A stretch of DNA of 31,470 nt from a virus: IMG/VR virus record IMGVR_UViG_3300025133_003349, positions 1-31,470 of that record; one strand, written 5' to 3'. Position 1 is the stretch's first letter. Each line of letters opens with the position of its first letter. Positions 1-23,209 of the stretch are shown in pieces. Both the position numbers and the translations under genes were made by a program. Under the pieces are notes generated by a model that did no database searches, was not told the origin of the DNA, and saw only the letters and a program-made list of their open reading frames with translations.

Positions 1-371
1 TCCTAGAAGAAAACTTTGATGAAGATGAACTAGACGAAGATGAACTAGAGATAGATAGACTGTCGATAGATTTATTAAGTGTAGATTTCTTAATAGATTT
101 ATTAGCTTTCATAGAAGGTGAAGAAAGGGTTTCTAAGATTGGAGATGTAACTATAGAAGGTATAACTGCTGGATATGACGCTAAAGCACAAACCTATTCT
201 TTTGTGGATGGAGAGATGCTTACTTTCTTTAGAAGTGTAGAAAATACAATAGACTTACAAATAGAAAAAAGGAGTGCTTACAACATACAGATATTATCTG
301 CTGGTAAATTTATAGATATAACAGTGAACGGAGGAGGAGATGGTACGATTATTATTAATCAGTCTGATTAG
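1..371 (+). CDS. Acidic hypothetical protein, 5' end outside window
   Basis: An open frame runs from the window edge (first full codon at base 3) to a TAG at 369-371, giving the last 122 residues. The first visible part is very acidic (tandem DEDEL-type units), followed by a hydrophobic stretch (roughly residues 20-40) and a beta-rich C-terminal half ending in DGTIIINQSD. I do not recognise a family. Its last 32 bases overlap the start of the curlin-repeat gene, and a GGAGGAGG ribosome binding site for that gene lies inside it, so the two are probably translationally coupled. It could be a tail-associated or secreted protein, but that is a guess. Confidence 0.7.
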   Translation, partial: LEENFDEDELDEDELEIDRLSIDLLSVDFLIDLLAFIEGEERVSKIGDVTIEGITAGYDAKAQTYSFVDGEMLTFFRSVENTIDLQIEKRSAYNIQILSAGKFIDITVNGGGDGTIIINQSD

Positions 372-1122
372 TTTTCCTTTGTTTGCTGGAAATAATACAA
401 CTACTATTCAGCAGAAAGGCGATGACTCCATCATTAACATTAAGCAAGTAGGGTATACAAATAATGCCACAGTCTATTGTGGTTTAAGTAACGGAGTTTA
501 CCAAACACACACCTGTACTAGGGCAACAATCAATTTAAATACCACTGGTTCTGGAAATACGACTAAAGCATATTCTCAATGGTCTAATCACTCAGATAAC
601 ACTTTCAACATAACTCAAGATGGTGATAACAATTATGGGTATCTTGACCTAGACAAAGACGACAATACAGGCACTGTTACGCAGACAGGCGACAGCAATC
701 ATGGCGAGATATTAATGGCAGGAGATGACACAAACTATTCAATAACTCAAACTGGAAATAATAAGTATGCAAAAATTCTTGCATTTGGAGATGATGCCAC
801 TACAACCATTACACAATCAGGAACAGGACAACATAACGCTTACGTCTATAACTACAACTACGCTGATGGTAATACCACAACGATTACACAATCAGGCTCA
901 GGAGACCATGATGCAGATATATTTTGGTATTCAGACGCAGATGATGGAACAGCGTCTATAAATCAATCAGGCTCAGGAGACCATACCGCCAGACTTAATT
1001 TCTATAAAGACGATTACAACGTGGCAGTAACTCAAAGCGGAGCAACAGATAAAAGTTTTACAGCGACCTACAACTGCGTAACCAATTGCACAAAGACTTT
1101 AACTATTACTCAGTATGATTAA
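340..1122 (+). CDS. Secreted curlin-repeat (CsgA/CsgB-like) protein
   Basis: A 260-residue protein. Residues 1-16 form a signal peptide (Arg, Leu/Ile core, FPLFA before GNN). The rest is built from amyloid curlin-type repeats whose strands read (I/V)(T/N/K/Q)QxG. Copies are seen near residues 23, 34, 91, 113, 135, 157, 182, 207 and 230, with a terminal ITQYD at 256. Central spacing is 22-26 residues, as expected for one strand-turn-strand rung of a beta-solenoid. Loops are rich in Asp, Asn, Gly and Tyr. Curlins are secreted and polymerise into extracellular amyloid fibres. No CsgG/E/F-like secretion gene is visible in the window. Start chosen for the strong GGAGGAGG site. The stop overlaps the cyclase start by 8 bases. 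The family call is firm; fibre formation is inferred. Confidence 0.85.
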   Translation: MVRLLLISLISFPLFAGNNTTTIQQKGDDSIINIKQVGYTNNATVYCGLSNGVYQTHTCTRATINLNTTGSGNTTKAYSQWSNHSDNTFNITQDGDNNYGYLDLDKDDNTGTVTQTGDSNHGEILMAGDDTNYSITQTGNNKYAKILAFGDDATTTITQSGTGQHNAYVYNYNYADGNTTTITQSGSGDHDADIFWYSDADDGTASINQSGSGDHTARLNFYKDDYNVAVTQSGATDKSFTATYNCVTNCTKTLTITQYD

Positions 1123-2887
1123 GCGGTTTTTACCTCTAGCTATATTATTAATATTAGGATTGCCAATAATTTATGAGTTTAAACCTTATGAAATACTTAA
1201 ACTTAAAACCTTTGATGCTTTAATACCAGAGCAAGAGCCTTCAGGTTATTTTACTGTACTAAACATAACAGAAGATGATATAACTAGAGAAGGTGGCTAT
1301 CCACTGAGTAGACAAAGGCTCGCTGAAATACAGATAGAAATTTTAAATAGTGGAGCGATAGGTGTCGGTTGGGTAGTCGCCTTTCCTCAACCAGATAGAT
1401 TTGGCGGAGATGCAGAATTCTCTGAAGCCTTATCTTACGCACCAAGTATCTTGGCAATGTTTGAAAATGATAATGGAAATTATCCGCCCACTACTGGAAC
1501 AGTCATTATGGGTGATGACAAAGGTGGTATAGATGCAAAGGGCGTTATTCAGAATATACACATACTCAGACAAAGCGCCAATCAAGGTATAGCCGTAGCA
1601 AGGGTTGAAGTAGATTCTTTAATAAGACGATTGCCCTTATTGCTAAGAACTCCTGATGGTTGGGTTCCTGCTTATGGTACTGAGGTTCTGAAGATATTAA
1701 CTGGTGCTGATACCTACGTTATAAAGACCAATGAAATAGGTATAGAAGAAATAAGAGTTAAAGGTTTACCGCCTGTTAAAACAGATGTACTTGGTCGTAA
1801 GTGGATAAGTTGGGTTGATACACCGCAAACAGACTTAAAGGAAATGAATGTAGAAGGTAAGTTTGTGTTCGTTGGTTTCACGGCAAAAGGGATAATGCCA
1901 CAACTAAGCGTACCTAATGGTCAACTCTTAGAGCCACATAAGATTCAAGCTGCATTAGCTGAGTCTATTCTTATTGAAAACAGTCCTTACGTTCCTGACT
2001 ACGCATTAGCAGTAGAAGCAGGTATATTTGCCCTCTCAGTACTCTTTACGTGGCTTCTGCTGCACGTTTTTGGTATAACCCTTGGCATTACTCTATTTAT
2101 AACTTTGATGCTTACAACGGCTTATTTTAGCTTCTATACAATTCAACAAGGATTGTTAATAGACGTAACATGGACATTAATATCACAGTTCATTACAGGT
2201 TCAGTAGCTTTCTACTTAAGGTTTAGAGAACAGTTTAAATTAAGACAGCAGATTAAAAAACAATTTGAACACTACCTAGACCCTGCACAAGTTAAGAGAT
2301 TACAAAGCAATCCAGAGCTTTTAAAGTTAGGTGGTGAAAAGAGGTACTGTACCTTTTTGTTTACAGATGTCAGAGGTTTCACAGCCATGTCAGAAAACTT
2401 AGAGCCTGAAGATGTCGCTCTAATAATGAATAAAGCTTTAACTGTTCAACAGAAAGCCGTTCAGGTTCATGGCGGAATGGTAGACAAATACATTGGGGAC
2501 GCAATGATGGCTATATTTAATGCTCCTTTAGATTTAGATAACCATGAACAGAAAGCAGTAGACTGTGCATTAAGTATGCAAGAAGGTATGTTATTTCTTA
2601 ATGATGATTTAGAAAAGGAAGGACTTCCTCCTATAGAAATTGGTATAGGTATCCATAGTGGAAAAGCTGTAGTTGGAAACATGGGAAGTGAATCTAGATT
2701 TGATTATACGGCTATAGGAGATGCCGTAAATACAGCAGCAAGAACTGAGTCTGCTTGTAAAGAAGCAGGACATAACCTCTTGATTACTAAAGATACTATT
2801 TCTAAATGTTCAAATACTTTTGAAGTACTCAAGCCTATACCTGTGAAAGGTAAATCTGTTCCTTTAAATATCAATACAATACTTTAA
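1115..2887 (+). CDS. CHASE2-domain receptor class III adenylate/guanylate cyclase
   Basis: A 590-residue membrane protein. It has an N-terminal membrane anchor (residues 5-20), an extracytoplasmic CHASE2 sensor (about 25-290), three membrane helices (about 296-318, 320-342, 349-369), a short linker and a cytosolic class III cyclase domain (about 410-590). All expected catalytic positions are present: metal-binding D418 (FTDVRGFT) and D462 (GDAMMAIF), K458 for the purine, and transition-state N539 and R543 (AVNTAAR). The second purine-selecting residue is T532, the class IIIb pattern, which usually means adenylate cyclase. It would convert ATP to cAMP in response to an outside signal. It lies 8 bases into the curlin gene end, so co-expression is likely. 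I know of no characterised phage homologue. Domain calls are strong; the cAMP product is inferred. Confidence 0.9.
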   Translation: MIKRFLPLAILLILGLPIIYEFKPYEILKLKTFDALIPEQEPSGYFTVLNITEDDITREGGYPLSRQRLAEIQIEILNSGAIGVGWVVAFPQPDRFGGDAEFSEALSYAPSILAMFENDNGNYPPTTGTVIMGDDKGGIDAKGVIQNIHILRQSANQGIAVARVEVDSLIRRLPLLLRTPDGWVPAYGTEVLKILTGADTYVIKTNEIGIEEIRVKGLPPVKTDVLGRKWISWVDTPQTDLKEMNVEGKFVFVGFTAKGIMPQLSVPNGQLLEPHKIQAALAESILIENSPYVPDYALAVEAGIFALSVLFTWLLLHVFGITLGITLFITLMLTTAYFSFYTIQQGLLIDVTWTLISQFITGSVAFYLRFREQFKLRQQIKKQFEHYLDPAQVKRLQSNPELLKLGGEKRYCTFLFTDVRGFTAMSENLEPEDVALIMNKALTVQQKAVQVHGGMVDKYIGDAMMAIFNAPLDLDNHEQKAVDCALSMQEGMLFLNDDLEKEGLPPIEIGIGIHSGKAVVGNMGSESRFDYTAIGDAVNTAARTESACKEAGHNLLITKDTISKCSNTFEVLKPIPVKGKSVPLNINTIL

Positions 2888-3096: not shown

Positions 3097-4066
3097 TATT
3101 TATCTCCATAAAGTTTACAACATCTTGTTTCCCACGAAGTCCTGCTTTCATGTAAGAAGTTGCTCGACCTTCAAAAAAGTTTTGATGTTCAACACCCATA
3201 ACTTCATCAATCCAACCTAAAGGATTCTCTCGTTGGTCGTAGTTTGTTTTTAATCCTAGCTGAAGTAATCTTCTATCAGCTATATATCTGTTGTATGCAT
3301 ACATGTCTTTCTTTGTAAGACCTTGTAAGTCTCCCATTTCGAATACTAAATCAAGAAACTTATCTTCAAGCGTAACCATTTCTCTACAGATTTCATAAAG
3401 TTCTTTCTTAAAATTATCTGTCCAGATATCAAGATTCTCTTGTATAAATTCTCTAAACAACTGTGTCATAGCCTCAACGTGTAATGATTCATCGCGTATA
3501 GAGTACGTAACTATCTGCCCCATACCTTTCATTTTACCAAAGCGAGGGAAGTTTAGCAAGATAGCAAAACTACTAAAGAGTTGTAAGCCTTCTGTAAATG
3601 CCGAGTAAACTGCTAAAGTTTTAGCAATAGTTTTTTTATCTTTTTTACGCGGCTTAAAGGTTGATATATAATCATGTTTAGCTGCCATTTCTTCGTACTC
3701 TGAGAAAGCTTTGTATTCTATTTCAGGCATACCTACTGTATCAAGTAGTACACTATATGCATCTTGGTGTATACCCTCCATATTTACAAAAGAACCCATC
3801 ATCATTCTAGCTTCAGGCTTTCTAAACATAGGCATATACTTATCTATATACCCCGAAGCTACGTCTACATCTGATTGAGTAAACAGTCTAAATATTTGAG
3901 TTAATAGGTTTTTTTCTTCAGGTGAAATTTCTTGCCAGTCTTTTACGTCTGTATGTAGGGGCACAGAGTCAGTCACCCAATGCATTTGATTTTGTAATTT
4001 AAAGTAATCGTACATCCACGGGTACTCAAAAGGTTTGTAGTAATCTCTATTGCTTAGTAAGCTCAT
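3077..4066 (-). CDS. nrdB: Class I ribonucleotide reductase, beta (R2) subunit
   Basis: A 329-residue R2 subunit that generates and holds the tyrosyl radical used by the alpha subunit to make deoxyribonucleotides. The di-iron ligands are recognisable by spacing: D66, E97 and H100 (EGIH), E159 (FTEG), E193 and H196 (RDESLH). The radical tyrosine is Y104, seven residues after E97 as in E. coli. Length and residues are typical of an active phage R2. It overlaps the HNH gene by 4 bases and lies downstream of nrdA in the same leftward operon, separated from it by an HNH endonuclease and a 56-residue ORF. Confidence 0.97.
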   Translation of the reverse strand: MSLLSNRDYYKPFEYPWMYDYFKLQNQMHWVTDSVPLHTDVKDWQEISPEEKNLLTQIFRLFTQSDVDVASGYIDKYMPMFRKPEARMMMGSFVNMEGIHQDAYSVLLDTVGMPEIEYKAFSEYEEMAAKHDYISTFKPRKKDKKTIAKTLAVYSAFTEGLQLFSSFAILLNFPRFGKMKGMGQIVTYSIRDESLHVEAMTQLFREFIQENLDIWTDNFKKELYEICREMVTLEDKFLDLVFEMGDLQGLTKKDMYAYNRYIADRRLLQLGLKTNYDQRENPLGWIDEVMGVEHQNFFEGRATSYMKAGLRGKQDVVNFMEINNEGIGS

Positions 4067-4650
4067 GTGTTCTCCTGTAAATAGTTAATTGCTTTTGTTA
4101 ATTTTTGTATATCATCTTTAAAATGTCCTAGACCTAGGTTACACATACCACATAAAATACCTCTAATTTTATTAGTTGTGTGACAATGGTCTACATGAAT
4201 ATGTTTTGTATCCAAAATAGTAAAAGAAGTTAAACAAATTTTACATTTATCATTTTGTTCGTCTAACATATTCTTATAGTCTTCAGATGATAATCCATAT
4301 TTTTTCTCTCTCCAATAAGCAGCTTTCTGTTCTTTATTTTTTTCATTATATTCTTTTCTTTGAGCAGCTATCTGTTCTTTATTTTTTTCATAATATTCTT
4401 TTTGTTGAGCAGCTATCTGTTCTTTATTTTTTTCATTATATTCTTTTTGTTGAGCAGCTATCTGTTCTTTATTTTTTTCTCTGTATTCTTTAATAGCTTC
4501 TTTATTTTTTTCTCTGTATTCTTTTTGTTGAGCAAGACGTTTTTCTCTATTATCTTCTTGATATGTTTTTACTCTATCACATATAGCTTCTTTATTTTTT
4601 ATATAATATTCTTTATCATAAGCAGCTTTCTGTTCTTTAGTTTGAGACAT
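4063..4650 (-). CDS. HNH endonuclease of the endonuclease VII type, inserted between nrdA and nrdB
   Basis: A longer frame opens at 4683, but the ATG at 4650 follows a perfect GGAGG at 6-base spacing, so I use that start (195 residues). The N-terminal two thirds is a Lys/Glu/Gln coiled coil of near-identical 15-residue units (core YNEKNKEQIAAQQKE). The C-terminal 75 residues form a recombination endonuclease VII/HNH domain: zinc cysteines C136/C139 and C167/C170, catalytic HVDHCH at about 152-157, and N171. Enzymes of this fold cut DNA. Free-standing HNH or GIY-YIG genes between nrdA and nrdB are a known homing-endonuclease niche (mobE of T4-like phages), so a homing role is likely but not proven. 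The low-complexity coil may be a DNA-tracking spacer. Confidence 0.85.
   Translation of the reverse strand: MSQTKEQKAAYDKEYYIKNKEAICDRVKTYQEDNREKRLAQQKEYREKNKEAIKEYREKNKEQIAAQQKEYNEKNKEQIAAQQKEYYEKNKEQIAAQRKEYNEKNKEQKAAYWREKKYGLSSEDYKNMLDEQNDKCKICLTSFTILDTKHIHVDHCHTTNKIRGILCGMCNLGLGHFKDDIQKLTKAINYLQENT
4319..4498. repeat. Tandem 45-bp repeats inside the HNH gene
   Basis: Four copies of a 45-base unit start at 4319, 4364, 4409 and 4454, each beginning GCAGCT on the plus strand. The middle copies are almost identical. They encode the 15-residue coiled-coil repeats. Such repeats expand and contract by slippage, so the coil length may vary between relatives. Confidence 0.9.
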
Positions 4651-4807
4651 TATATTCCTCCACTTGTTTAGCATACTTTTCAAGTAGCCATTTGTTATAA
4701 GTTTTAATATATTCTTCTTCAGTTAATTTTACTGCACCAAAGGCTGAGTTCTCGTCACAATGGTCTAGCCACATACGAGTGCAAAAACTTTTAAAATTAT
4801 TTGACAT
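4637..4807 (-). CDS. Small hypothetical protein between nrdA and the HNH gene
   Basis: A 56-residue frame starts (MSNNFKSFCTRMW...) 2 bases after the nrdA stop, preceded by GAGGGA formed by the last nrdA codons. It ends (EEYNVSN) overlapping the HNH start by 14 bases. It is predicted helical, with no recognised domain. The tight packing on both sides supports a real gene. It may belong to the ancestral nrdA-nrdB intergenic segment rather than to the HNH insertion. Confidence 0.65.
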   Translation of the reverse strand: MSNNFKSFCTRMWLDHCDENSAFGAVKLTEEEYIKTYNKWLLEKYAKQVEEYNVSN

Positions 4808-8930: not shown

Positions 8931-9119
8931 TTACCATTCACCACAACCGCCTACATCATCACACATGGGGTAATTTCTACACCCTAAATGTTCTATTTCC
9001 CATTCCAGTTCTTTCTTTTGTTTTTTAGTAAGAGGTTTATTTGCATAATATTTCTCAGCCTCACTACCAGTCACTTGCATTTCATATAGTTCTTTATTTG
9101 TATACTTAATGAGTTTCAT
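8931..9119 (-). CDS. Small Cys-rich-tail protein
   Basis: 62 residues. A helical Lys/Glu N-terminal part is followed by a C-terminal cysteine cluster (CRNYPMC, then GGCGEW; C47, C53, C59), suggesting a metal site. The start overlaps the polymerase 3' end by 14 bases, with AGGAGA upstream. No family recognised. Confidence 0.65.
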   Translation of the reverse strand: MKLIKYTNKELYEMQVTGSEAEKYYANKPLTKKQKKELEWEIEHLGCRNYPMCDDVGGCGEW

Positions 9120-10845
9120 ACCAACTGTCTCCTATATTAAATTCGCCCGTTAATGGACACCTTAAATCATATTCTTTAGATGCTTGTTCTATACATCTAA
9201 CTGCTAATGCACCTACCCCATTTGCATGAGATTCAGGTACTTCTATCTGCCATTCGTCATGAATGTTAGCAACTATTTTAGCAGGGATAGTTTGTAATTC
9301 TAACATATCCGATAAAATAATTAAAGCTTTTTTCATAACTATCGCACCTGCTCCTTGTAACAAAGTATTCAAGGAAGCGTGTCTGTGTCTAATAAATATC
9401 TTGCGTCCGTCTAATCCTTTTAAGTATCCTCTTGAAGATGCTCTTTCAACTCTATCTCTAAGAGTTTTAAATGCAGGGTTATTATTGATAAAAGATTCTC
9501 TAAGTTGTTTACCTTGCTTTCTACTTCCTTGCACGATTGAACCAAGCTTTGAGTCTCCCGCCCCGTAAATAAGTGCGTAGATGAATGTCTTACTCTGATT
9601 TCTTGATTCAAGTCCTGCAGACCTTTGGTTAGTTGTGTGAATATCTCCGTTGATAATTTCATTTATATACTCCTCGTCAGCCATATAGTGTGCTAACAAT
9701 CTTAATTCTAAACCACTAGCATCTATACCTACTAGCTTGTTCCCTTTATCTACTACCCAACAGGCTCTACATTCTTTACCATAAGGACTACTTACGCTAG
9801 GAACTTGAGCCATGTTAGGGTTTCTGTGTGCCATTCTACCTGTGATTGCACCTGTAGATAATACTGAACCATGTACTCTATCATCATCTGCTACTGAATC
9901 TAACCATGAACTAATTTGTGCAATTCTTTTTTGATATAATAAAAAGTCTGCTATTAGTTTAGCTTCTTTAATGTGAGTAATATTTTTTAATGTACCTTCA
10001 TCAACAATAGGTTGACCTGTAGGTGTAAACTTTTTAGGCTTCCAACCAAAACTAATTAAGTATTCTCCAATCTGTTTACGAGAACCTAAGTTAAATTCTA
10101 CTAACTCTTTTCTCATAAAAGGTTTCATGTTTTTTGAGGTTTGTATTTCTTCAAACTCATACTCTGTTAAACCTGATTTAGAAAGTGTTCCGTCTTGTTT
10201 TAATTTAGGAATTACTTCTTTTATGTCAACCCATTTAGGCTTGAAAGTTCTATGTACTTCATCTTGTACTTTCTTTATCTTACAGTTTAGTTCTGCTAAT
10301 AAATTTGTTGCGTACTCAATATTAATTTTAAAGCCATGCTTTCTTTGCTCTTCTAAAATATAGGTTACTTGGTGTTCTAAGTCTATGCTTTCTTTAGAGA
10401 ATCCTGCAGCTTCTTTCTTTAGATATTCAAATAAAAGTTTATTCAAAATCACATCTTTTAAACAATACTTTAAAGTATCTTTAGTATAAATATGGAAGTC
10501 TTCAGGAGGTAGGTCTTTTGCCATACCTAATTTAGAACCCCAAACTTTTAATGAATGTCCTTTCTCTCTGATAGGGTTTAAAAGCCGAGACAGAACTAAA
10601 GTATCTATGACTTTATCTTTATTCCACAGGTCAATATCATGTAGTTTTTTAATTACTGGGATGTCAAAGCCTATAATATTATGTCCAATAAGTTTGTCTG
10701 CTTCTGCTAAGAAGTCAAGACCTTTTAAAATATTATCATCTATAATGTCAAAGGTATATTGTTTATTGTTTTCATCTATTGCTACAATACAATGTATCTC
10801 TGTGGCATTTAAATCGTCTGTTTCTATATCAAATACTAACTCCAT
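9106..10845 (-). CDS. Family A DNA polymerase with 3'-5' exonuclease
   Basis: A 579-residue replicative polymerase of the T7/PolA family. The N-terminal proofreading domain has D6 and E8 (DIETD), D61 (GHNIIGFD) and D131 (YCLKD). The polymerase domain has motif A around D375 (GIDASGLELR), motif B R415/K419/Y423 (RNQSKTFIYALIYG) and motif C H529-D530-E531. There is no 5'-3' exonuclease domain. Y423 aligns with E. coli F762 and T7 Y526; a tyrosine here has been linked to fast, virulent phage lifestyles. It would work with the primase-helicase and ssDNA-binding protein encoded upstream. It is shorter than T7 gp5 (704), consistent with a reduced thumb/thioredoxin-binding region, which I did not locate. 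Confidence 0.96.
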   Translation of the reverse strand: MELVFDIETDDLNATEIHCIVAIDENNKQYTFDIIDDNILKGLDFLAEADKLIGHNIIGFDIPVIKKLHDIDLWNKDKVIDTLVLSRLLNPIREKGHSLKVWGSKLGMAKDLPPEDFHIYTKDTLKYCLKDVILNKLLFEYLKKEAAGFSKESIDLEHQVTYILEEQRKHGFKINIEYATNLLAELNCKIKKVQDEVHRTFKPKWVDIKEVIPKLKQDGTLSKSGLTEYEFEEIQTSKNMKPFMRKELVEFNLGSRKQIGEYLISFGWKPKKFTPTGQPIVDEGTLKNITHIKEAKLIADFLLYQKRIAQISSWLDSVADDDRVHGSVLSTGAITGRMAHRNPNMAQVPSVSSPYGKECRACWVVDKGNKLVGIDASGLELRLLAHYMADEEYINEIINGDIHTTNQRSAGLESRNQSKTFIYALIYGAGDSKLGSIVQGSRKQGKQLRESFINNNPAFKTLRDRVERASSRGYLKGLDGRKIFIRHRHASLNTLLQGAGAIVMKKALIILSDMLELQTIPAKIVANIHDEWQIEVPESHANGVGALAVRCIEQASKEYDLRCPLTGEFNIGDSWYETH

Positions 10846-10854
10846 AAGTCCTCC

Positions 10855-12528
10855 CTAAAAAGGTAGTGTATCATCTGCACTAAAACTATTCAACATTTCT
10901 GTATCTTCGTACTCAGATAATCTACCTGTATTTTTATCATAAACTAATGCAGTTGCTAACCCTACATCTCCTGTGTAACGTGACTTAAGTACACGCAATC
11001 TTGTAGTCCTAGATTCTAATTCATCATCAGCTTGTTGATTCCTTTCTAAGGCTATCACGCAATCCGATAGTTGAGCAATCGCATTAGAACCTCTTAGATG
11101 TGATAAGCTTACGTTCACTCCATTCTCATGCCCTTTATCACCTTGCACTCTACGTAAGTGAGAGACAAGTATAATACCTGCACCCGTTTCTTCAACTAAA
11201 CTTCTAAGCCTAGTCATAATAGAATCAATTGCTCTACGTTCGTCACCCTCTGTAGTGGCAGAGACTAACATATGTAAATGGTCAACTATAACCCAACGAC
11301 AATCACACCCTACAATAAGATAACGAAGCTTAGAAAATATATCTTCAATATCATTTGTACCAAAATGAGCATGAATAAATACTTTGTCGTGGTCAAAAGT
11401 TTTATTAAACATTTTAACTAAGTCTTGCTCTTTATATTTATCTCTTATGTCGTCAATGTAAAGCCTGTCATTAGCTTCAATAGATAAGATGCCGTCTACT
11501 GTACGTCTCCAATCTTCTTCTAAGGCTATGACTCCTACGTTATCCTCTGTTTGATGTATAAGCCAATGCTCTAACTCCCTAGTGACAGAAGACTTACCCA
11601 AGCCTGTACCTCCGGTTAAAGTTAACAATTCCGACTGACGTAAGCCTATCAATTTTTTATTAAGACCATGCCAAGGATAAGGTACACTACTTCTTTTCTC
11701 TCTATTGAGAAAGTCTTCTTGCTTCTCAGAGACTCGAATGATACCACTAGGTGTAAAGACTTTAGCATCCCACCAAGCTTGAGTAAATTCTTTATGTAAA
11801 TTTTTACGAAGCATATCGTTAGCATCTTTACATCCATTAGGAATAGAAAGTATTTTAGCCTTACGTGGTTTAATAATACTTGCTACTTTCTGCGATGCTT
11901 CTATACCATGCTTGTCATTGTCAAAACAAATGACTACATTATCAAAACTTTCTACGTATTCAATGTTATCTTTAATGTCTCTGACTGCACCCTGTACTCC
12001 ATTTCTAATAGAAACTACTGCCCATTTACTACCAAGTAATTCATAAGCTGCCATAGCATCACATTCGCCCTCAACTATAGTTAAATATTTACCACCCTCT
12101 TTAAAGAGTTGCTGACCAAAGAGACCTGTGCCTGCTGTCGTTCCTTCAAACTTAAAATTTTTATCTTTAACATATCTTATCTTAGTACCTGTTTGTTCAT
12201 TATTTATATGGTAAGGATATCTGTGTTGAGCCAAGACTCCTTGAGAGTCATACACAACCTTCACTCCATACTTCATGGCAGTCTCTTTTAGTATACTTCT
12301 ATCTGTAAGAGGTGCGTATGTACCACTATGTACTGTTTCTGTTGGAGGTGTTGGTGGTTTAGTATAATTATTATTCATAGGTACAATGTTCTTTGGTTTA
12401 GGCGTAAACTTTCCGCAACTAAAACACTTAGTTGACCTGTCTTCATTGATGCAAAGAGCATCACTACTGTTACAATCAGGACAGGGTTGATGTGTTTTAT
12501 AAAAAGGACTAAATTTATTATCTATCAT
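10855..12528 (-). CDS. T7 gp4-like primase-helicase
   Basis: 557 residues from the ATG at 12528, which has GGAAG four bases upstream; a GTG at 12555 lies within the terminator hairpin and is less likely. Domains in order: zinc finger (C16, C19, C35, C38); TOPRIM primase (E153 in VEGE, D203 and D205 in CFDND); RecA-like DnaB-family helicase with Walker A at 306-313 (GGTGLGKS) and Walker B D416 (VIVDHLH), followed by SHLRG and ALERNQ motifs. The last residues are acidic and end in Phe (SADDTLPF), like the T7 gp4 tail that contacts polymerase. It unwinds DNA and primes lagging-strand synthesis. Confidence 0.96.
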   Translation of the reverse strand: MIDNKFSPFYKTHQPCPDCNSSDALCINEDRSTKCFSCGKFTPKPKNIVPMNNNYTKPPTPPTETVHSGTYAPLTDRSILKETAMKYGVKVVYDSQGVLAQHRYPYHINNEQTGTKIRYVKDKNFKFEGTTAGTGLFGQQLFKEGGKYLTIVEGECDAMAAYELLGSKWAVVSIRNGVQGAVRDIKDNIEYVESFDNVVICFDNDKHGIEASQKVASIIKPRKAKILSIPNGCKDANDMLRKNLHKEFTQAWWDAKVFTPSGIIRVSEKQEDFLNREKRSSVPYPWHGLNKKLIGLRQSELLTLTGGTGLGKSSVTRELEHWLIHQTEDNVGVIALEEDWRRTVDGILSIEANDRLYIDDIRDKYKEQDLVKMFNKTFDHDKVFIHAHFGTNDIEDIFSKLRYLIVGCDCRWVIVDHLHMLVSATTEGDERRAIDSIMTRLRSLVEETGAGIILVSHLRRVQGDKGHENGVNVSLSHLRGSNAIAQLSDCVIALERNQQADDELESRTTRLRVLKSRYTGDVGLATALVYDKNTGRLSEYEDTEMLNSFSADDTLPF

Positions 12529-12539
12529 ATATCTTCCAT

Positions 12540-12576
12540 AAAAAAGGCTAGACACTATACACAGTAATGCCTAGCC
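12540..12576 (-). terminator. Rho-independent terminator between ssDNA-binding operon and primase-helicase
   Basis: On the minus strand, GGCTAG pairs with CTAGCC, extended by CATTA pairing with TAGTG (one G-T wobble and one mismatch). Six T residues follow immediately. It sits after the 91-residue gene and before the primase-helicase, so it could reduce read-through into the replication genes. Confidence 0.8.
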
Positions 12577-12591
12577 AAATTTTAAAACAAC

Positions 12592-12867
12592 TTAACTTTC
12601 TTCTGTGCTTTCGTCAAGTTCAGTTTCTTCCAAAGGGAGAGAACCTTCATCATTATATAATGCTACGATTCTGTTTGAAAAGAAATTAATACCTGCTTGT
12701 AATTCTTCTAAGTCAAGCGTGACATTAGCTTTCTTTTGATTCAGTCGTTGAAGTCTTCCGAAGATTTGCTGACCTTCTTCAGGTAAATCTTCTACGAAAA
12801 CTTGTACGTCATCTATAGTAATGAAAGGTTTATCTAGTTCTTCTAGTGTAACTTCTTCGTTTGCCAT
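12592..12867 (-). CDS. Small acidic phage protein
   Basis: 91 residues, acidic, with a helical centre (EEGQQIFGRLQRLNQKKANV, then LEELQAGINFFSNRIVAL) and an acidic tail rich in Glu/Ser. It resembles small helical phage proteins of the DUF6447 type, but I hold that lightly. The start overlaps the stop of the ssDNA-binding gene (TAATG), with GGGGAGGAG just upstream, so it is coupled to it and may act with it. A terminator follows. Confidence 0.75.
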   Translation of the reverse strand: MANEEVTLEELDKPFITIDDVQVFVEDLPEEGQQIFGRLQRLNQKKANVTLDLEELQAGINFFSNRIVALYNDEGSLPLEETELDESTEES

Positions 12868-13316
12868 TAGAACTCCTCCCCGTCACCAAACGGATTTAAT
12901 TCATCTCCGTCTTGTGACTTCATAGGTACTAAGTCTAGCACTTGCATAGCTTGGAAGTCTAAGCTAACACCTGATTTGCCTGCGTAATCCCAGTCAAACT
13001 CATTGTATTGAACTTTTACTGCCGAACCATTACCTACTGTAACATCCATAGGCTCTTTGTTGAGATTATAGAGTTTAGGTGCAGGTCTCTTGCCGTTCTT
13101 AGCATTAACTTTTCTTTTAATGGTCACAGCTTTACCTACATATTGAGGTTCACCGCTTTCATCTTTTAATGAAAAGTCTTTAACCTTAACTCCTCTTGAG
13201 CTAAAGTCTTGAGCGTCTTCATCACTAATTACTAGGTCTACTGTGTAGACTGGTTCAAAAGTTTCATTAGGTACTGTGACGCTCGCCCAGTACGCTTTTC
13301 CTATTGCTACTGCCAT
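12867..13316 (-). CDS. T7 gp2.5-like single-stranded DNA-binding protein
   Basis: 149 residues. A beta-rich OB-fold-like body (GKAYWASVTVPNE, YVGKAVTIKRKV, VKVQYNEFDWDY) ends in an acidic tail terminating in Phe (DGDELNPFGDGEEF). That is the signature of phage gp2.5-type proteins, which use the tail to contact polymerase and helicase. It is smaller than T7 gp2.5 (232). AAGGAG precedes the start, and a perfect sigma70 promoter lies 40-70 bases upstream, suggesting high expression. Confidence 0.85.
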   Translation of the reverse strand: MAVAIGKAYWASVTVPNETFEPVYTVDLVISDEDAQDFSSRGVKVKDFSLKDESGEPQYVGKAVTIKRKVNAKNGKRPAPKLYNLNKEPMDVTVGNGSAVKVQYNEFDWDYAGKSGVSLDFQAMQVLDLVPMKSQDGDELNPFGDGEEF

Positions 13317-18052: not shown

Positions 18053-18081
18053 ATTTTAGCGACTGAAGTTTTTGGTGTCAA
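18053..18081 (-). promoter_or_regulatory. Leftward early sigma70 promoter
   Basis: On the minus strand, TTGACA (18076-18081) and TAAAAT (18053-18058) are 17 bases apart. The downstream leader shares a TCAACAA core with the promoters at 16785 and 17357. It should start transcription near 18046, ahead of the GGAGG at about 18004-18008. Confidence 0.8.
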
Positions 18082-19480: not shown

Positions 19481-19669
19481 ATGGAAGATATAAGAGTTAA
19501 GTTACCTAATACAAACGAGTTCAAGACAGCGTTTAATAACTTTTGGATAGCTAACCCACATTTAAAGAATGAGCCAATTATGTACATGTGCTCATCTAAA
19601 GGTTATGACTATTTCAAGCACTCAACAACTAGAGAGAATTACAAAGCTATAGAAAAAGTTAATTCTTAA
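19481..19669 (+). CDS. Small hypothetical protein
   Basis: 62 residues (MEDIRVKLPNTNEFKTAFNN...), with aromatic and Cys residues in the middle (IMYMCSSKGYDYF). AGGAGA lies ahead of the start at good spacing. It is flanked on both sides by strong terminators and no promoter is obvious, so it may depend on read-through. Unknown family. Confidence 0.68.
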   Translation: MEDIRVKLPNTNEFKTAFNNFWIANPHLKNEPIMYMCSSKGYDYFKHSTTRENYKAIEKVNS

Positions 19670-19687
19670 CAAATAAAACTAATTAAG

Positions 19688-19715
19688 AAGGGTACTTTAA
19701 TCAGTACCCTTTTTT
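19688..19715 (+). terminator. Strong Rho-independent terminator
   Basis: AAGGGTACT pairs perfectly with AGTACCCTT across a 6-base loop, followed by T residues. It ends the small-gene block and separates it from the gene-free region before the terminase. Confidence 0.9.
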
Positions 19716-20292
19716 ATGTCTGGAAGGTTTTTGTAGGTCTCTGGTAACTAGAAAGCCCATAAATGCGATTTAAGCCCTCTAAAGTCTCTTACCCCTTACT
19801 AGACCATTAGAAATCTGTAAAAGTCTCTCTAAGGGATTGTTAAGGCTATAGAAACGTACTTAACTCTTAGATGTTAAACCCCTATATCAGACGTTGATTA
19901 TTTTCATTTATTCTAGGTAAACTTCATAAACTCTATAAATCTATCTAGGTTTTGGTCTGTTTCTTTGTAAATCTTTAAAGTTTTTAGAAACTTTTGAAGC
20001 TTTTAAAGTCTGTATAAATTTTAATCACTTATTAAGTTTAATTTGTAGATTTATAGAGTCTTTAAAGTACTGTATAAATGTATAGTATTTACAAAGTCTT
20101 TAAAATGTGATAGGGGCGCAGGACACCCTACCCACCCTACCCCTATATATGCACAATCTCATACATTTCTAAGAGTTTTGAATGTTAAGTAGGGTTGGTC
20201 GGGGGTATGTGGAACTTCTAAGTCTAGGAAGTCTTTAGATAACTATATAGGGGCTTTACTGGTGTTACTATGACCGGGCATAGTTAACTATT
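19716..20292. other. Gene-free, repeat-bearing region upstream of terminase: candidate packaging site / noncoding RNA locus
   Basis: No frame above about 20 codons looks coding on either strand. AAAGTCT occurs at 19781, 19820, 20005 and 20093, with near copies at 20056, 20220 and 20229. CTSTATAAAT occurs at 19931, 20010 and 20070; the last two lie in a longer shared block TTTAAAGT(A)CTGTATAAAT. A GC-rich patch with CCCTACCC twice lies at 20111-20143. CCCCTATATA (20141-20150) is complementary to TATATAGGGG (near 20244-20253). Its place just before the small terminase fits a cos or pac site. A consensus leftward promoter at its right edge would also transcribe it as a noncoding RNA. Confidence 0.55.
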
Positions 20293-20321
20293 ATTATACA
20301 GTTAAAACCTGTTTTTGTCAA
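20293..20321 (-). promoter_or_regulatory. Perfect consensus leftward sigma70 promoter
   Basis: On the minus strand, TTGACA (20316-20321) and TATAAT (20293-20298) are exactly 17 bases apart. It points into the gene-free region, where it has no coding gene to serve, and lies back to back with the terminase promoter. Confidence 0.85.
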
Positions 20322-20349: not shown

Positions 20350-20378
20350 TTGACAGAATCCAAAATAGCCTATATAAT
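20350..20378 (+). promoter_or_regulatory. Perfect consensus rightward promoter of the packaging/structural operon
   Basis: TTGACA (20350-20355) and TATAAT (20373-20378) are exactly 17 bases apart. The predicted transcript start is near 20385, only about 3 bases before the small-terminase ATG, so the message would be essentially leaderless. Confidence 0.9.
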
Positions 20379-20387
20379 AGATAGCAT

Positions 20388-20810
20388 ATGAACTTACCCA
20401 GTAATTCAAAGAGGAGTCTAACAGTAAAACAACAAGACTTCCTCAATAACTTAATCGAAACAAAAGGAAATTTAAAGCTTTCAGCCGAACTTGCAGGCTA
20501 TGCAGGAAATCACTACCAAGTAATAAATAGTCTTAGACAAGAAATAGTGGATTTAGCCGAGACAGTCCTCGCAAGGGAAGCACCTAAAGCAGCCTTTAAG
20601 CTCGTAGAAGTTATGGAGAGCGAGACAGCAGTACCGCAAGCTAATACAAAGCTTCAGGCTGCTCAGACAATCCTAGATAGGGTTGGGGTTTCTAAAACAG
20701 AACGATTAGATATTAATCAAAATGTTAATGGAGGTATATTCATACTGCCCGAAAAGCAATTAATAGATATTAAAGAAGAAGACTACGAAGATGTTAGTCC
20801 ATCACAGTAG
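20388..20810 (+). CDS. terS: Terminase small subunit
   Basis: 140 residues with the familiar small-terminase pattern: LTVKQQDFLNNLIETKGN, then AAELAGYA-type helix-turn-helix, a central helical oligomerisation part (EIVDLAETVLAREAPKAAFKL), AAQTILDRVGVSKTERL and an acidic tail. Small terminases recognise the packaging site and recruit the large subunit, and the repeat-bearing region just upstream is its likely target. No ribosome site is present, in line with a near-leaderless transcript. It is the first gene of the rightward operon. Confidence 0.87.
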   Translation: MNLPSNSKRSLTVKQQDFLNNLIETKGNLKLSAELAGYAGNHYQVINSLRQEIVDLAETVLAREAPKAAFKLVEVMESETAVPQANTKLQAAQTILDRVGVSKTERLDINQNVNGGIFILPEKQLIDIKEEDYEDVSPSQ

Positions 20811-21415: not shown

Positions 21416-23209
21416 ATGAATGGTTATATAAAAAAGAAAGGAAAAACTATTCCTTTTGGTTATGAACTCTCAGAAATAAAAGGTTATCTCAAACCAATAC
21501 CTGCACAACAAGAAAGTCTAGCAAAGTTTATTAAGCTTATACAAGAAGAAAGTTTAACTCTCAGAGAAGCAGCTAGACAACTCTCAGAAGAGACAGGACG
21601 TTCTATTAGTCACGTAGGTATATCAAAGATAGTTAAAAAACTAGAGCCCACTCCACCCCCAAGCAAATATAGATATTCTGCTGAACAAAAGCGGAAGATG
21701 GCTTTAGCTAAAAAAGAAAGAGAAATAAAGAAAGCTAAAGAAAAAATCTTAGCTAAAGAAAGAAAGGTTAAGAAAGAAAAAGAAGTAATTAAAAAAGCAA
21801 CGGAGTCTACTACTAGTAATATTGTAATAGAAGAAGACCTAGAGTCCGTTGCTCCGTCAGTACAAGAAGTTATTAGAGACTCTAAAATTATCTTTCATCC
21901 TAATGATGGACCACAAACAGAGTTCTTAGCTGCAGATGAAAAGGATGTTTTATATGGTGGTGCTGCCGGTGGTGGAAAAAGCTATGCTATGATAGTTGAC
22001 CCTCTACGCTATGCTCATAGGTCAGCACATAGAGCCTTAATACTTAGAAGGTCTATGCCAGAATTAAGAGAGATGATTGATAAATCCAGAGAGCTTTATC
22101 CTCAAGCATTTCCGGGTGCTAAGTTTAGAGAGGTTGAAAAGCTTTGGAACTTTCCTTCGGGTGCAAAAGTAGAATTTGGATTCCTTGAAAGAGATGCAGA
22201 CGTATACAGATATCAAGGACAAGCATATAGTTGGATAGGTTTTGATGAGATAACACATTTACCTACAGAGTTCTCTTGGAACTATCTAGCCTCTCGTTTA
22301 AGAACAACAGACCCAGAAATTAAAACTTATCTTAGGTGTACTGCTAACCCCGGAGGTGTAGGGTCGCACTGGGTTAAAAATAGATACATAGAACCACAAA
22401 AGCATAATAAAAGCTTTGAAGGTAAAGATGGTTTAACTAGAAAGTTTATACCTGCTAAGTTAGCAGATAATCCATATTTAGCTAGAGACGGCATCTATGA
22501 ACAGATGTTAAAATCTCTTCCTCCGATACAGCGAAGACAGTTACTAGAAGGCAATTGGGATGTAGCAGAAGGAGCTGCATTCGTAGAATTTGACCCTACT
22601 GCTCATGTTATTCCTCCTTTTGAGCTTCCTATTCATTGGGAAAGGCTTAAAGGCATTGACTATGGGTACGCTTCAGAAAGCTGTTGTTTATGGGGAATAT
22701 TAGATTTAAATGATAATACTTTAATTATTTATCGCGAATTGTATCGAAAAGGCTTGACAGGTCACGAATTAGGTGCTATAATAACCGATATGGAGATAGA
22801 AGACCCTTTCTCCGTAAATGGTGTATTAGATACTGCAGCATGGGCTAACACAGGAACGACTGGACCAACTGTAGGAGAAGAGCTTTTAAAAGCAGGACAT
22901 AAACTAAGAAGAGCAGATAAGAATCGTATTCAAGGTAAAATCCAAATACACGAATATTTGAAAGTAAGAGAAAACGGAAGACCTAAGTTGCAGATATTTA
23001 ATACGTGTCCTAACTTAATAAGAGAGTTACAGAGTATTCCGTTATCAAAAACAAATCCAGAAGATGTAGATACACATGCTTCGGACCACGCGTATGACGC
23101 GTTAAGATATATGATAATGAGTAGACCTCGTATGGAAAACCCATTAGAAAGAATGAGAGGTTTTAAAAGAGAAATGTATAAACCTGCTGATTCTGAATTT
23201 GGATATTAA
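21416..23209 (+). CDS. terL: Terminase large subunit with N-terminal recombinase-like helix-turn-helix
   Basis: 597 residues. It packages DNA into proheads and cuts concatemers. The ATPase has Walker A at 181-188 (GGAAGGGKS begins at 181) and Walker B at D277-E278 (WIGFDE). The nuclease acidic residues are D415 (GIDYGYA), D472 (VLDTAA) and D557/D561 (SDHAYD). Before this core, residues 1-80 (GKTIPFGYEL, LKPIPAQQESLAKFI, LTLREAARQL, SISHVGISKIVKKL) resemble the DNA-binding linker of large serine recombinases, joined by a Lys/Glu coil (84-125). This extension may bind DNA near the packaging site. Weak ribosome site (AGAAAAAG). Confidence 0.95.
   Translation: MNGYIKKKGKTIPFGYELSEIKGYLKPIPAQQESLAKFIKLIQEESLTLREAARQLSEETGRSISHVGISKIVKKLEPTPPPSKYRYSAEQKRKMALAKKEREIKKAKEKILAKERKVKKEKEVIKKATESTTSNIVIEEDLESVAPSVQEVIRDSKIIFHPNDGPQTEFLAADEKDVLYGGAAGGGKSYAMIVDPLRYAHRSAHRALILRRSMPELREMIDKSRELYPQAFPGAKFREVEKLWNFPSGAKVEFGFLERDADVYRYQGQAYSWIGFDEITHLPTEFSWNYLASRLRTTDPEIKTYLRCTANPGGVGSHWVKNRYIEPQKHNKSFEGKDGLTRKFIPAKLADNPYLARDGIYEQMLKSLPPIQRRQLLEGNWDVAEGAAFVEFDPTAHVIPPFELPIHWERLKGIDYGYASESCCLWGILDLNDNTLIIYRELYRKGLTGHELGAIITDMEIEDPFSVNGVLDTAAWANTGTTGPTVGEELLKAGHKLRRADKNRIQGKIQIHEYLKVRENGRPKLQIFNTCPNLIRELQSIPLSKTNPEDVDTHASDHAYDALRYMIMSRPRMENPLERMRGFKREMYKPADSEFGY
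22754..22782 (+). promoter_or_regulatory. Perfect consensus promoter inside terL
   Basis: TTGACA (22754-22759) and TATAAT (22777-22782) are exactly 17 bases apart, within the coding sequence of the terminase nuclease domain. It could boost expression of portal, scaffold and capsid genes downstream. Confidence 0.65.

Follow-up and report, generated by a model that had tools for sequence, protein, structure and literature searches.

A conserved promoter-led noncoding region in HMO-2011-type marine phages as a candidate transcription-primed origin

A strong leftward promoter, followed by a conserved G-rich core element and AT-rich noncoding DNA, was found next to the late promoter in the window, a viral contig of 31,470 bases that represents a fragment of a relative of the HMO-2011-type marine podoviruses. 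What is conserved in this region is the primary sequence, rather than a fold. The region is tentatively interpreted as a cis-acting DNA control region conserved within the group and, probably, as a transcription-primed origin, a reading that is given somewhat less than an even chance on the basis of the sequence comparisons described below.

Phage group and divergent promoters

The window was assigned by its terminase genes and gene order, which are homologous to those of HMO-2011-type phages. Its TerL is 67-68% identical to that of the Pelagibacter phages HTVC103P, HTVC104P and HTVC115P and 41-50% identical to those of HTVC033P, HMO-2011 and the RCA roseophages, and relatives of its TerS were retrieved almost exclusively from the HMO-2011-type group. 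Phages of this type are described as dominant and widespread in the ocean, and a DnaJ-like insertion in the polymerase is a strict marker of the group (PMC9038755). In the window, the 579-aa polymerase matched the DNA_pol_A and exonuclease models of Pfam and no DnaJ-type model, and the window is therefore called a relative of the HMO-2011 group, not a strict member. Neither a promoter nor a noncoding RNA is mentioned anywhere in the description of these phages (PMC9038755), and one published infection transcriptome study used other pelagiphage groups.

The leftward early genes of the window include a T7-like family A DNA polymerase (9106-10845, minus strand), a T7 gp4-like primase-helicase (10855-12555, minus strand), part of the replisome expected to use an origin, and a gp2.5-like single-strand DNA-binding protein (12867-13316, minus strand). 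A rightward block of terS, TerL, portal and capsid genes starts at 20.4 kb, terS (20388-20810, plus strand) being the first late gene, as recognized from its relatives and a weak Terminase_2 match. Elsewhere, Pfam models identified a curlin-repeat protein and, after it, a CHASE2-adenylate/guanylate cyclase protein (340-2887, plus strand). The N-terminal half of an Endonuclease VII-like protein (4063-4683, minus strand) contains a long array of KNKEQ-type repeats that are nearly identical to one another.

The leftward promoter, TTGACA-17-TATAAT, is located at 20321-20293 on the minus strand, with +1 expected near 20286; the 12-of-12 match claimed for it in the earlier note was confirmed. A second 12/12 promoter of the same composition (TTGACA-17-TATAAT; 20350-20378, plus strand) diverges from it and serves terS and the late genes. 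The -35 boxes of both promoters stand back to back with 28 bp between them. Five 12/12 sites were counted in the window versus a mean of 0.0 in 30 Markov simulations, and strong promoters are thus usual in this genome. Another 12/12 promoter (TTGACA-17-TATAAT, with TG preceding the -10 box) lies inside the TerL gene at 22754-22782 on the plus strand.

A search with TerS gave 80 relatives; all of those with sufficient upstream sequence had a leftward promoter matching 11-12 of 12 positions. Contigs were also fetched by the pattern of the core element and by an early gene, avoiding selection through TerS. The core pattern gave 26 matches in viral contigs, all of them loci of the HMO-2011-type group, and the layout was identical in the eight matches that had not been reached through TerS. 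Contigs obtained through the early gene, without TerS, likewise showed the promoter reading into the core. When all distinct cores with enough sequence were counted (n = 90), the leftward promoter had an exact TTGACA and matched at least 11 of 12 positions in 90/90 distinct related regions, with a 17-bp spacing in 89 of them and the core 70-270 bp away. The late promoter on the opposite strand was more variable, matching 9-12 of 12 positions among relatives. The leftward promoter facing a gene-free region is not due to chance, and transcription into that region, as proposed earlier, is strongly supported by its conservation.

Core element, noncoding DNA and RNA fold

The core element occupies approximately 90 bp at 20107-20197 on the minus strand and reads TTAACA...AAATGTATG...GCATATATA, followed by a G-tract and TCCTGC. 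Its consensus consists of GTTWACA, approximately 20 bases, AAATGTAT, approximately 8 bases, GCATATATA, 20-24 GC-rich bases and (T)CCTGC; a TATATA box is part of the core. The GC-rich tract is near-constant in length (20-24 bp) and free in sequence between its conserved flanks, and nearly all loci contain a single core match. Inside the core of the window lies GGGGTAGGGTGGGTAGGG (20126-20143, minus strand), a G-quadruplex (G4) motif on the RNA-like strand and the sole three-tetrad G4 of the window. The RNA-like strand of the tract is rich in G in 55/58 distinct sequences, and a two-tetrad G4 pattern is present in 49/58 distinct tracts; in HTVC103P and HTVC104P, the promoter is kept and the tract is C-rich. 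The core element, the G4 motif and the sequence conservation were all absent from the earlier note.

Among more distant relatives, CRP-1, -2, -3, -13, -212, -235, -345 and -738 as well as HMO-2011 each have a noncoding stretch of 489-1209 bp, in which a similar core was recognized by eye. The homology of the cores in these nine isolates rests on this reading by eye, because a core profile barely detects HMO-2011 (E = 4.5). None of the isolates has a consensus promoter reading into the core at 10/12 or better, the GC-rich tract mostly has C instead of G on the RNA-like strand, and terS is usually kilobases off (3-8 kb from the core). As judged by eye, relatives that lack the promoter still carry the core, which suggests that a DNA element is what has been conserved here. 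The distribution of the promoter argues for its being a feature of the pelagiphage-type branch.

No open reading frame (ORF) longer than 26 aa was found between 19716 and 20292 in the window, leaving approximately 580 bp gene-free. The statement that no gene follows for nearly 600 bases therefore holds, and the ORF scan of the window revealed no hidden coding gene of the kind named as a refutation. The longest ORFs in the noncoding regions of relatives measure 15-84 aa. In HTVC104P, a 42-aa gene annotated within the conserved noncoding region (HTVC104P_gp89, positions 581-709 of locus L096) is probably not real.

The core is followed by a 147-bp segment of 20% GC (19960-20107) that resembles a duplex-unwinding element and carries AAAGTCT and TTTAAA repeats. 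DNA after the core was more AT-rich than its own locus in 59/79 relatives. The AAAGTCT repeats to which attention had been drawn earlier do occur, with four copies over the two strands together versus 0.4 expected, but the excess is modest and taken alone a weak signal. Close relatives also share the sequence of a second stretch (19737-19986, minus strand), for which no consensus fold was obtained. The region is bordered by a two-way terminator hairpin at 19688-19715 (feature 19682-19717, inverted repeat I10). Its T-run lies on the plus strand, so that it works well as a terminator of the rightward gene at 19481-19669 and only weakly for a leftward RNA. The hairpin at which the leftward transcript was said to end thus exists, but its orientation is that of a rightward terminator.

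Palindromes resembling parS (TGTTTCACGTGAAACA, 0-2 mismatches) were observed in the noncoding region of one clade of relatives, 140-230 bp after the core (L076 2156-2171; L073 270; L074 3570; L077 416; L059 332; L069 1566). Seven such matches, six of them post-core, were found in 2.1 Mb versus approximately 0.6 expected by estimate, and no ParB gene was found near the sites in the six fragments searched. One to three copies of TTTGTGATCACAAA-like palindromes follow the core in L127-L129 and L133 (CRP-1, -13, -345 and -2), occupying the position of the AAGCTTTTAAAAGCTT or AGTCTTTAAAGACT repeats of other clades.

The RNA of the window folds better than its shuffles (MFE z-score -3.9). RNAalifold analysis by clade gave z-scores of -1.1 to -5.3, with folds differing between clades; for the window's own clade, in which the sequence is well conserved, values were 0.0 for the 3′ half and approximately -2 for the 5′ parts. 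A local G/C hairpin at the CCTGC of the core returned an empty consensus structure, and covariation in a long-range pairing between the core and upstream RNA in HTVC103P, 115P and 033P was only apparent, being lost against shuffles. The segments CCCCTATATA (20140-20149) and TATATAGGGG (20244-20253), earlier described as complementary, are indeed exact complements 94 nt apart, but their pairing is within the expectation from composition (p = 0.27 versus shuffles in the window; p < 0.05 in 1/39 relatives). In the homologous regions, for which covariance analysis had been suggested as a check, neither a consensus fold nor covariation was found. A structured noncoding RNA family would be marked by a conserved fold with compensatory changes, which was not observed, or by a known Rfam match, which was obtained neither for the window nor for 14 relatives. 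The proposal of a structured RNA with a role in packaging, in control of the host or as a decoy found no support, as there is no consensus fold, no significant long-range pairing and no Rfam family.

Origin reading and rival explanations

Strong promoter, G-rich tract, AT-rich noncoding DNA and a T7-like replisome together make up what would be the anatomy of a transcription-primed origin. Host RNA polymerase would produce the leftward RNA. This would remain hybridized over the G-rich/AT-rich stretch, forming an R-loop to which a G-quadruplex of the displaced strand might contribute. The 3′ end of this RNA would then prime leading-strand synthesis and the opened DNA would load the helicase; in lineages whose early genes share its strand, the RNA would run on as early message. 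Two features of R-loop origins were found, namely a promoter reading into the site, in all 90 pelagiphage-type regions unlike in the RCA/HMO-2011 isolates, and, past the promoter, an unwinding element rich in AT (19960-20107). Third-codon-position skew changes sign at the region in 3/4 RCA genomes, a weak signal, and raw skew did not single out the region from other blocks. Against an origin count that no initiator protein was identified, that the RCA phages and HMO-2011 lack a promoter into the core and mostly have C for G, and that the tract of HTVC103P and HTVC104P is C-rich. A more specific version, modelled on mitochondria, in which host RNA polymerase would transcribe the G-rich block into a hybrid G-quadruplex R-loop and the T7-like replisome would extend the RNA, is considered unlikely.

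The genes beyond the region differ between lineages. In approximately half of the distinct contigs, window included, the next genes are small and lie on the opposite strand, usually behind a two-way terminator; in the other half, early genes lie on the strand of the RNA, starting approximately 0.4-0.8 kb after the core. Because early genes face the promoter in these lineages, the RNA is there an early leader, and the earlier remark that the promoter has no gene to serve is weakened as a general statement, since early transcription with a long leader can start from it. The same layout, together with the terminator hairpins being mostly confined to lineages with convergent genes, favors an explanation in which early transcription starts mainly from this promoter and the core acts in cis as a signal within the untranslated leader, for example, a nut/put antitermination site; the convergent gene cassette and terminator of the window lineage would have been inserted later. 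However, the core-like stretch of CRP-3, -212, -235 and -738 lies between leftward blocks and would be transcribed against the next genes, no RNA fold is conserved, and the early genes of the window have an 11/12 promoter of their own at 18081, so that this explanation, too, is regarded as unlikely but deserving of weight. A discrete leftward RNA of approximately 600 nt that ends at the hairpin is plausible, but only where, as in the window, the region is followed by convergent genes and a two-way terminator. Its action in trans as a noncoding RNA of approximately 575-640 nt, the proposal of the earlier note, would fit the promoter conservation (90/90), the lack of a reading frame in the window, the z-score of the window RNA and the two-way terminator in many relatives. 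It is nevertheless held to be improbable, considering that consensus structure, covariation and an Rfam match were not found, that a separate RNA is not expected in half of the lineages and that the core persists where the promoter is absent.

Two further explanations are a packaging site and an operator. As a packaging site (cos/pac), cleaved or bound by terminase, the core would have the GC-rich tract as cohesive end and the repeats as putative TerS-binding sites. The core region adjoins terS in pelagiphages and heads the late gene block elsewhere, a free-sequence tract of 20-24 bp between conserved flanks would suit a cohesive end, and a cut at the core would place the early genes at the end entering the cell first. 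Long contigs, however, cross the core both ways, and their ends scatter without the pile-up at the core that a cos site would predict, which makes packaging less likely, although contig ends are weak evidence. Given also that terS is 3-8 kb away in the RCA and HMO-2011 genomes and that packaging does not require a strictly conserved promoter, this explanation is rated quite doubtful. An operator region switching both divergent promoters, in which a phage regulator would bind the core and the palindromes, could account for the close spacing of the -35 boxes (28 bp), the greater variability of the late promoter (9-12 of 12) relative to the leftward one and the palindromic repeats in several clades. 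The distance of 70-270 bp between the promoter and the beginning of the core is large for a simple operator, and the G-rich tract and long conserved stretch are left unexplained; an operator appears very improbable.

Comparison with known systems

Phage noncoding RNA genes include the phi29 pRNA and the large ornate RNAs GOLLD and ROOL; unlike these, the region has no conserved fold or Rfam match. The ColE1 primer RNA II is a noncoding transcript of approximately 550 nt, of which a G-rich stretch hybridizes to the template. The phage region resembles it in the predicted noncoding transcript of similar length with a G-rich stretch, whereas ColE1 is a plasmid with a strongly folded RNA, of which no counterpart was found in the phage region, and an antisense RNA I. 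The primary origin of T7 consists of the promoters phi1.1A/B and AT-rich DNA. Transcription beside AT-rich DNA and a related polymerase and primase-helicase are common to both, but T7 uses its own RNA polymerase and has no G-rich core. T7 polymerase together with its helicase can extend a transcript (PMC5997990).

The T4 origins oriF and oriG require a promoter together with an AT-rich element for unwinding, and the R-loop RNA is the primer (PMC3016281). The phage region has the same succession of promoter and AT-rich unwinding element, with a proposed noncoding function of the transcript; the T4 origins differ in their MotA middle promoters and in having no conserved G-tract core, and their function was shown, whereas here it is inferred. 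Initiation in human mitochondria depends on LSP transcripts that persist in R-loops at CSBII, a G-tract (PMC6317783). Here, the likeness comprises a promoter, a G-tract on the RNA-like strand approximately 100-200 nt downstream, a control region and a T7-like replisome. It is a likeness in layout; the RNA polymerase is a different one and the tract is C-rich in some phage relatives. The control region, its promoter conserved in 90/90 regions, provides a defined target for studying how replication is initiated in phages of the streamlined SAR11 bacteria, and, if the region is an origin, it would constitute a phage parallel to mitochondrial promoter/G-tract priming, with a related replisome.
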